From positions 62,001-126,000 of the forward strand of contig RDYP01000003.1 in NCBI GenBank assembly GCA_004293445.1: DNA of 64,000 nt. Reading direction: 5' to 3'. The notes beneath the pieces were generated by a model, which was not told the DNA's origin, searched no databases, and worked only from the letters and a program-made list of their open reading frames with translations. The translations under genes were made by a program, and so were the position numbers. The DNA is from Verrucomicrobiota bacterium (GTDB lineage: Bacteria; Verrucomicrobiota; Verrucomicrobiia; Verrucomicrobiales; Akkermansiaceae). The stretch's first letter is position 1; the number at the start of each line of letters is the position of its first letter. Of the stretch, positions 51,813 to 53,682 are shown piece after piece.

Positions 51813-52940
51813 TCAGCCACGCCATTCGCCGCGCTCGTCCTCCTCAAGCTGAATCCGATCGTTCAAATTGCGCGCCTTGACCCTACTATTGCGCTTCGCC
51901 CAGCGCTCAACCGTCATTTGCCGCTTCTTCGCGAGGTGGCGCAGCTTTTCGATCTCATCATCCAGATTCAGGAAACTCTCCAAGCGCTGGAGATCAAGCT
52001 TCCCCTCCGCCACCGCCGCACGGATCGCGCAGCCCTTGTCCTGGCCATGCTTGCAGTCGGCGAAACGACACTCCGCGGACATGGCTTCCACATCGGCAAA
52101 ACTCTCCCGCAGCGTCTGCTCGTCGGTCCACATCTGGATTTCCCGCATCCCGGGATTGTCGATCAGCATGCCACCCTTCGGCAGCGGAACCAACTCACGC
52201 GAAGTGGTGGTGTGGCGACCCTTGCCCGTCACGTCGTTCACCTCGCTCGTCCACTGCCAATCCTCGCCGTAAAGCTGGTTCACCAAGGTCGATTTGCCGA
52301 CACCGGAGGAACCGACGACACACATCGTGACGCCCGTTTTGAGATACTTTTTCAGCAGGTGCAGCCCCTTCCCGCCAAGCGCGCTGGTCACATGGACATC
52401 GGCCTCCGGACAGAGTTCTCGCAACTCGTCCGCACAGGCCTCGTTGTGTGCCTTGGGAAAAAGATCCGCCTTATTCACCAGCACCACCGCCTTCGCCCCA
52501 CTGCGAGCGATCAACGCAAAATAGCGCTCCATCCGCCGTGGATTGTGGTCGGGACCGGAATCGGTGACCACCGCAACGACATCGACATTCGCCCCGATGA
52601 CCTGCTCTTCGACCGTCTTGCCGGGCATCTTGCGGGAAAAGCATGATCTCCGCGGCAAGCGGGCACGGATCACATGGTCCGTGTTTTCATCCCCAAGCTC
52701 AACCGCCACCCAATCCCCAACCGCGGGCAGATCGGCATCCGTGGCCGCCTCGTGCCACACCTTACCGGCAAGCACGCAGTCGATCTCCTCGATCTCGTCG
52801 CCGCCATCCTCGTCGGGCACGAAGGCGCTGTAATTGATCGGCGTCTCACGGATCAAGCGCGCGGCCACCCACCCCCTCGCCGCATACGGAGCGAAGGCCC
52901 TGGCGAAATTTTCATCCCATCCGAGTTCAGCGAAAGTCAT
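51813..52940 (-). CDS. rsgA: Ribosome small subunit-dependent GTPase A
   Basis: A 375-residue circularly permuted GTPase that helps mature the 30S ribosomal subunit. An N-terminal OB fold is followed by the permuted order G4 (VLVNKADLF), G5 (TSALGGKGL), G1 (VVGSSGVGKSTLVN), G2 and G3 (MLIDNPGMREIQ). The C-terminal zinc knuckle is CRFADCKHGQDKGCAI. Compared with E. coli RsgA it carries a basic C-terminal tail (MTVERWAKRNSRVKARNLND). It stands alone, divergent from the toxin-antitoxin module. Confidence 0.95.
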   Translation of the reverse strand: MTFAELGWDENFARAFAPYAARGWVAARLIRETPINYSAFVPDEDGGDEIEEIDCVLAGKVWHEAATDADLPAVGDWVAVELGDENTDHVIRARLPRRSCFSRKMPGKTVEEQVIGANVDVVAVVTDSGPDHNPRRMERYFALIARSGAKAVVLVNKADLFPKAHNEACADELRELCPEADVHVTSALGGKGLHLLKKYLKTGVTMCVVGSSGVGKSTLVNQLYGEDWQWTSEVNDVTGKGRHTTTSRELVPLPKGGMLIDNPGMREIQMWTDEQTLRESFADVEAMSAECRFADCKHGQDKGCAIRAAVAEGKLDLQRLESFLNLDDEIEKLRHLAKKRQMTVERWAKRNSRVKARNLNDRIQLEEDERGEWRG

Positions 52941-53024
52941 CCGCCCGCAAACATAACGACACGACGACGCCTGTCGATCCTCCCGCCCCGGTGCCCTGGC
53001 AAAGGCCCCACCGAAAATACCTTT

Positions 53025-53062
53025 TTGACAAATCCAGCCCGGTAAAACATGGTTGAACCATG
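53025..53062 (+). promoter_or_regulatory. Promoter and palindromic operator of the abrB-doc module
   Basis: A perfect -35 hexamer TTGACA lies at 53025-53030. Seventeen bases on, 53048-53053 (CATGGT) is a weak -10, which would put the transcription start at about 53060, the A of the ATG. The 15-bp palindrome CATGGTT-G-AACCATG (53048-53062) covers both the -10 and the start codon. No Shine-Dalgarno is present. This suggests an autoregulated and possibly leaderless transcript. Confidence 0.6.
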
Positions 53063-53287
53063 ATCAAGTCCATCGCCAAAATCGGCAACTCCCACGGCAT
53101 CATTTTCGATACCGCCCTCCTCCAGCTCGCCCACCTCAAGCCGGGCGACCAGGTCAATGTGGAGGTGCATCCCGGCGGAACCATCACGATGACGCCTCTG
53201 GATCCTGTTCCTGCGCCTGCTGAATTCAGCGCCAAGGTCGAGGATCTGATGCAGCGCTATGCTCAAACTATGAAGCGATTGGCATGA
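53060..53287 (+). CDS. AbrB/MazE-type antitoxin
   Basis: A 75-residue SpoVT/AbrB-like DNA-binding protein. The swapped-hairpin barrel is seen in IKSIAKIGNSHGIIFDTALL, QLAHLKPGDQVNVEVHPGG and TITMTPLDPV. A helical C-terminal tail (FSAKVEDLMQRYAQTMKRL) could neutralise the toxin. Its stop overlaps the toxin start (ATGA, 53284-53287), and a palindrome covers its own start codon, both typical of autoregulated antitoxins. Confidence 0.9.
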   Translation: MIKSIAKIGNSHGIIFDTALLQLAHLKPGDQVNVEVHPGGTITMTPLDPVPAPAEFSAKVEDLMQRYAQTMKRLA

Positions 53288-53682
53288 ACGCGAATCCTGA
53301 TACCTGCCTTCACCTGACGCCCGATCAGATTATCGAGATTCATGCAGCAGCCATTCGCCTCTTCGGCGGATCGCTTGGACTGCGCGATTCGGCATTGCTT
53401 CAATCTGCCGCAGCCGCCCCACGCGCCACCTTCGGCGGCAGCTCCACTTTTACGGACACGGTAGAAATCGCAGCGGCTTATCTCTACTACCTTTGCAGCA
53501 ATCACCCGTTTATCGACGGCAACAAACGCGTCGCTCTCGCTTCCTGCCTGATGGTTCTCGAACTCAACGGCTACAAGCCGACACCCGACAGCGAAGACTG
53601 GGAAACCCTCACCCTAGCCGTTGCCGCAGGACTGCTCACCCGGGATGAAATCACCGCCACGCTGCGCAAGCTGCTGGCCTGA
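53284..53682 (+). CDS. doc: Doc/Fic-type toxin
   Basis: A 132-residue death-on-curing protein of the Fic fold, which in phage P1 phosphorylates and inactivates elongation factor Tu. The catalytic motif is HPFIDGNKR (residues 74-82), the Doc form of HxFx(D/N)xNxR with the key His present. Upstream are the family segments LTPDQIIEIHAAAI and GLRDSALLQSAAAAPRATF. The pairing with an AbrB-type rather than a Phd antitoxin is a known variant. The toxin seems intact. Confidence 0.92.
   Translation: MNANPDTCLHLTPDQIIEIHAAAIRLFGGSLGLRDSALLQSAAAAPRATFGGSSTFTDTVEIAAAYLYYLCSNHPFIDGNKRVALASCLMVLELNGYKPTPDSEDWETLTLAVAAGLLTRDEITATLRKLLA

Follow-up and report, generated by a model that had tools for sequence, protein, structure and literature searches.

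A conserved, putatively leaderless promoter-operator upstream of AbrB-Doc toxin-antitoxin genes in Verrucomicrobiota

Where does the messenger of a toxin-antitoxin operon begin when its promoter lies so close to the first start codon that almost no room is left for a leader? This question is raised by a locus in the 64,000-nucleotide stretch of DNA analyzed here (the window), in which an AbrB/MazE-like antitoxin gene and an overlapping doc gene follow a set of closely packed elements whose coordinates are collected in Table 1. From the comparisons presented below we hold it very probable that the pair constitutes a type II AbrB/MazE-Doc operon with a sigma-70-like leaderless promoter, an operator for the antitoxin dimer embedded in that promoter, and coupled translation of doc. 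What the compared loci show directly is how the sequence is laid out, how far this layout is conserved, the families to which the proteins are assigned, and the order of the genes.

Table 1. Features of the AbrB-Doc locus, numbered from the first letter of the window
Feature	Position	Strand	Basis
RsgA-type GTPase gene, upstream neighbor	51813-52940	-	ORF and family match
-35 element TTGACA	53025-53030	+	Sequence, plus family conservation of exact TTGAC
Spacer, 17 nt	53031-53047	+	Between TTGACA and CATGGT
Conserved operator-like inverted repeat GTAAAAC-ATG-GTTGAAC	53042-53058, center 53050	+	Family consensus GTAAWAC-N3-GTWTTAC
Probable -10 CATGGT	53048-53053	+	17 nt past -35; same-spacing hexamers in family
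Palindrome CATGGTTGAACCATG, CATGGTT-G-AACCATG	53048-53062	+	Perfect 7+1+7, one unpaired center base; not conserved
TGAACC	53054-53059	+	Six bases between CATGGT and ATG
Predicted transcription start	53060 (A of ATG, +/- about 2 nt)	+	From spacing
Antitoxin gene, 75 aa, AbrB/MazE-like	53060-53287	+	ORF; TIGR02609 (doc_partner) match below curated cut-off
Doc toxin gene, 132 aa, motif HPFIDGNKR	53284-53682	+	ORF; 4-nt overlap (ATGA) with antitoxin end

Doc/Fic toxins carry a motif of the form HxFx(D/N)(A/G)NKR, and the downstream gene of the pair scores 63 bits against Pfam Fic (cut-off 24) and matches the death-on-curing protein chains 3k33, 3dd7, and 3kh2 at E-values of 5.7e-14 to 9.7e-13. Measured against the NCBIfam pair TIGR02609 (doc_partner) and TIGR01550 (DOC_P1), the window's Doc passes the latter (52.8 bits, cut-off 38.65), whereas its antitoxin stays under the curated cut-off of the former (28.3 bits against 55.9, E 1.7e-6) and likewise under that of MazE_antitoxin (19.1 bits against 24.7). 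Among the aligned antitoxin members, however divergent the window's own, all 23 match TIGR02609 and 22 of 23 match MazE_antitoxin at E ≤ 0.01, and a profile search with the antitoxin reaches MazE and PemI-like chains with E-values between 0.008 and 0.05. The monomer model of the antitoxin is of modest confidence (pLDDT 74.6, pTM 0.39), with SpoVT-AbrB and MazE chains as its top Foldseek matches at E 0.17 or worse. With its score below the cut-off, the window antitoxin is probably a divergent branch of the doc_partner family. The gene order, with the antitoxin first and the toxin overlapping it, is that of AbrB/MazE-Doc (TasAB-like) systems, and the AbrB-Doc module recognized in a preliminary description of this DNA is supported.

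That description had also noted a perfect TTGACA with 17-nt spacing to a weak -10, CATGGT at 53048, and both are indeed present. CATGGT shares three of six letters with TATAAT, including the A at position 2 and the T at position 6, and the promoter was not listed by a consensus promoter scan of the window because this hexamer falls under the scan's 4-of-6 rule for the -10; TTGACA itself appears in 3.6% of the sequences obtained when the 125-nt region is shuffled by dinucleotides. An in-frame TGA (53054-53056) stands two codons before the ATG at 53060, which is therefore the earliest possible start, and the reported lack of a Shine-Dalgarno (SD) sequence holds, with no SD-like stretch upstream of this ATG in the window sequence. 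On the minus strand the divergent rsgA gene has a TCGACA-N16-TATGTT of its own (52940-52977), which ends 9 nt before the rsgA ATG and, as a promoter, would leave a leader of only a few bases.

In light of this layout, we propose that a sigma-70-like promoter of the form TTGACA-N17-xAnnnT would begin transcription on the first base of the ATG or no more than about 2 nt away from it, and that the mRNA would be leaderless because the promoter adjoins the antitoxin gene so closely, leaving the ribosome to start on a 5'-terminal AUG without the aid of an SD. An antitoxin dimer on the 17-bp repeat GTAAAAC-N3-GTTGAAC would cover the -10 and exclude RNA polymerase, as the position of the repeat and the protein family suggest, and doc would be translated by coupling via the ATGA overlap.

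To set the locus among its relatives, the antitoxin was searched in 97 related genomes (match in 29) and, in the form of an alignment, in both 387 genomes of the phylum (match in 78) and a named genome collection, from which 80 of 247 loci were kept; going by their names, we take these 80 to come from Verrucomicrobiota (74), Acidobacteria (2), a Kapaibacterium (1), and organisms called "bacterium" only (3), which makes a verrucomicrobium the probable host of the window. Removal of duplicates of the stretch around the start reduced 136 locus entries to 125 distinct loci, 110 of which belong to the window's own subfamily A (window counted) and 15 to more distant groups. A further 40 distant loci were added (of 51 further places; one more was L030, already in the set), two were left out (L086, whose antitoxin frame is broken after 10 codons, and L231, for which no start was found), and the subfamily comparison covers 163 antitoxin loci in five subfamilies sorted by antitoxin type. 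Doc lies directly downstream of the antitoxin in 105 of the 110 subfamily A loci, its start extrapolating to the 4-nt overlap in 63 of those 105. The codon at the homologous antitoxin start is ATA in L021 and L022 and ACG in L102, not ATG.

Across subfamily A, 90 of 110 loci have exact TTGAC at -36 to -33 relative to the start codon, against 0.33 by shuffling, and 99 have TTG there with at least four of six consensus letters; of the 20 loci without exact TTGAC there, 12 carry TTGC at about this place. When the upstream sequences are clustered, 65 of 83 clusters have at least one member bearing exact TTGAC in place, and the sequence between the elements is close to random, with 0.28 as the mean pairwise identity. 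In 87 of the 90 loci TTGAC is followed after 16-19 nt by a hexamer of the form xAnnnT, and 17 nt is the best register in 73 of all 90, the count being generous because the best of four registers was chosen; TAnnnT at spacers of 16-19 nt occurs in 63 of 90 loci compared with 9.5 in shuffles. At the window's own -10 spacing, CATTGT stands in 9 loci and TAGTTT or TAGTAT in many. The -10 overlaps the conserved operator, so that its conservation could belong to the operator instead. That repeat, GTAAWAC-N3-GTWTTAC, scores at least 12 of 14 in 96 of the 110 loci. The window's copy lies across the -10, stops a single base short of the ATG, and is the sole site that a loosened pattern, built to include it, picks up in the own genome of 3.35 Mb. 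SD-like 4-mers upstream of subfamily A starts were found at just 1 of 110 loci. In L126 and L079, two exceptions to the common placement, promoter and operator are shifted upstream by about 13 and 3 nt, respectively, without an evident SD. A C at -1, present in 83 of the 110 loci, was dropped as support for a leaderless start: it adds little because it is also common genome-wide (326 of 558 genes in the own genome). Set side by side in this way, the upstream regions of relatives keep the -35-to-start layout across the family, and this conserved distance lends support to the earlier placement of the promoter for an mRNA with no leader or one of 1-3 nt.

Is the -35 truly held at a fixed distance from the ATG? 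The gap test used the 87 loci with both elements, leaving out the 23 of 110 without an in-range TTGAC or an adequate operator score, and TTGAC-to-start is 33-36 nt in 84 of them. The operator starts at -20 in one group and at -18 in the window's group, with TTGAC at -35 in both. Over all 87 loci the variance of the TTGAC-to-start distance is 1.22, as opposed to 2.73 with the two gaps permuted, and none of 10,000 permutations is as low; the corresponding values are 4.01 and 6.23 for 21 cluster representatives (p 0.018), and 1.85 and 3.24 for the 20 representatives within -40 to -31 (p 0.025). The lock of the -35 on the ATG is nevertheless partial, because in the cluster set it is the operator-to-ATG gap that varies least, with a variance of 1.46 that lies below the 4.01 for TTGAC-to-ATG.

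The steadiness of that second gap, the operator-like repeat being 17-20 nt from the ATG in 85 of 86 loci, would also suit an mRNA with a leader that lacks an SD, whose true promoter lies further upstream and for which TTGAC and the repeat form a composite site of the antitoxin or another regulator. Furthermore, Akkermansia is printed among SD-scarce organisms in the available part of PMC10783764, so a missing SD need not mean a missing leader and is, taken alone, weak evidence for a leaderless start. Against such a leader speak the combination of TTGAC, 17-nt spacer, and xAnnnT, which is a sigma-70 layout, and the -35-to-ATG distance, which is largely kept when the operator shifts; a third argument comes from the other subfamilies. 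The -35 lies at -33 to -36 in 99 of 110 subfamily A loci and in 26 of 30 B1 loci (GNSxGIVLPKE type), with a single SD-like site in A and none in B1. Conversely, it is found there in 2 of 14 B2 (HGNS), 0 of 3 B3 (VFPKE), and 0 of 6 C loci (WGNSQG), or just 2 of 23 combined, and these carry SD-like sites in 12 of 14, 3 of 3, and 4 of 6 cases (19 of 23 together). In 15 of the 19 SD-bearing loci, exact TTGAC stands further from the start, at -52 to -78. We consider a leader without an SD unlikely.

Taken over all 163 loci, 124 have a -35 at -33 to -36 and no SD, 19 have neither, 17 have an SD and no such -35, and 3 have both (Fisher p 1.4e-10, uncorrected for relatedness), so that the -35 at the start-codon position occurs almost exclusively where an SD is absent (124 of 127). 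The three loci with an SD-like 4-mer as well as a -35 at -33 to -36 count against the leaderless operon that we propose, as does the poor -10 of the window. Related antitoxins that look leadered thus also occur in the phylum, namely in B2, B3, and C; no Doc motif was found behind the antitoxins in the 6 loci of subfamily C. Many B1 antitoxin genes (among L127-L137 and L193-L232) show, by eye, another half-site, GTTATAAC, in the same promoter frame. One could tentatively extend this contrast to two initiation classes in the phylum, in which A and B1 would keep their promoter fixed some 33-36 nt ahead of the start codon, with a leaderless mRNA and an operator sliding inside, B2, B3, and C would mostly use a leader and an SD, and selection would have made leaderless initiation part of the switch. 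We regard this extension as possible but on the doubtful side; were it true, it would place antitoxin synthesis on a translation route unlike that of most of the cell's genes when translation is disturbed.

The specificity of the arrangement was assessed with a strict pattern, TTGAC plus GTAAWAC-N3-GTWTTAC, to which the window's own sequence does not conform. Run over 384 genomes of the class, it yields 18 sites in 17 genomes (reversed control 0). Each of the 18 stands ahead of an AbrB-like start codon, at a distance of 33-36 nt for 17 sites and of 37 nt for the remaining one, with a Doc motif behind 14 of them; because at least 5 sites lie in genomes that supplied pattern loci, this search tests specificity and not independence. 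Among viral contigs, none of 18 stretches with the -35/operator pattern (L233-L250) stands before an AbrB-like ORF, and the motif is therefore not specific in the viral collection. Some of the viral sites are followed by an SD-like stretch, and other regulators may use a look-alike operator.

For the genomic background, genes were called by codon usage, giving 558 genes for the own genome (741,488 bases sampled, the window among them) and 224 for a genome of the same genus (400,000 bases); an ORF-length caller found too few genes (217 ORFs) and was set aside in favor of the codon-usage caller. For the 401 of these own-genome genes whose upstream DNA is clear, TTG is enriched at -41 to -35 (106 in 7 positions) and TAnnnT at -16 to -12 (28 in 5 positions), with hints of a 3-nt periodicity. 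Many genes of this genome may thus have a very short leader or none. The strict leaderless promoter pair occurs at 5 of 797 in-frame ATG/GTG codons, 0 of 237 TTG codons, and 15 of 13,993 other in-frame codons in the own-genome sample, and at 2 of 360 ATG/GTG versus 2 of 5,566 other in-frame codons in the same-genus sample; exact pairs are few in the own genome, a point against the proposed leaderless operon.

The arms of the window's operator are complementary at only 5 of 7 positions and its -10 is weak, as might be expected if the pair were no longer an active toxin-antitoxin module and had simply inherited its layout. Such decay is quite improbable: both frames are intact, HPFIDGNKR and the 4-nt overlap are retained, and TTGAC and the repeat occupy the same places in the nearest relatives identified, whose antitoxins are 84 and 83% identical to that of the window. 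The preliminary description had assigned operator function to the palindrome CATGGTTGAACCATG, whose bound dimer would cover the start codon, and although this perfect 7+1+7 repeat is present in the window and turns up in 0.67% of cases when the 125-nt region is shuffled by dinucleotides (1.9% for any 7+(0-3)+7 repeat; four perfect 7+1+7 repeats in the 64-kb window), we rejected it as very improbable, since of the 110 loci the window alone has an exact copy and just 3 (the window, L004, and L036) reach at least 6 of 7, in contrast to the conserved repeat centered 5 bp upstream with its 96 of 110. As to the accompanying idea that one bound dimer could block both polymerase and initiation, a repressor on the DNA would stop transcription but would not prevent translation once an mRNA starting with the ATG had been made.

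AbrB-Doc pairs, leaderless transcripts in Akkermansia, and leaderless toxin-antitoxin genes in mycobacteria are already known, and what the comparison of these sequences points to as new is a conserved leaderless promoter-operator for the AbrB-Doc family in Verrucomicrobiota. Among the matches listed from the open-access literature, we found neither leaderless AbrB-Doc operons nor leaderless toxin-antitoxin genes in Verrucomicrobiota, and terms for the phylum are absent from PMC3160421. With a precise operator and predicted start site given, the question of whether selection favors leaderless antitoxin genes becomes directly testable, and the SD-bearing sister families within one phylum offer a natural contrast to the putatively leaderless AbrB-Doc family.

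Of the systems described earlier, the composite mazE-doc TasA-TasB of Bacillus thuringiensis pGI1 (PMC1626090) has the same pairing of an AbrB/MazE-type antitoxin with a Doc-type toxin; upstream regions of 232 and 311 bp were cloned in that study, and the terms leaderless, palindrom, inverted repeat, ribosome binding, and transcription start are all absent from its main text as available. AbrB-Fic pairs occur more than three times above expectation according to the accessible part of PMC2701414. The Phd-Doc system of Enterococcus faecalis (PMC13034048, main text as available, in which the word leaderless is absent) differs from the window in that its operator is a 10-bp palindrome. An operator at the -10 has precedent in PMC9477884, the available portion of which describes binding there by mycobacterial MazE6, of the ribbon-helix-helix kind, and also by E. 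coli MazE at a palindromic operator. In PaaR2-PaaA2-ParE2 of E. coli O157:H7, the toxin-antitoxin regulator gene paaR2 is leaderless by 5' RACE (PMC8630535, in the part available), but that three-gene locus, unlike the window, has a separate cI-like regulator and proteins of other families. The sections available of PMC3898074 give 32 of 37 mycobacterial toxin-antitoxin genes as leaderless, and these Mycobacterium tuberculosis modules belong to another phylum and have measured starts, whereas the window is known from comparative sequence. Finally, Akkermansia muciniphila belongs to the phylum of the window's named relatives, and in it roughly 10% of the start sites are leaderless and lie at annotated gene starts, a genome-wide figure that is given without a named toxin-antitoxin operon in the accessible text of PMC4782308.
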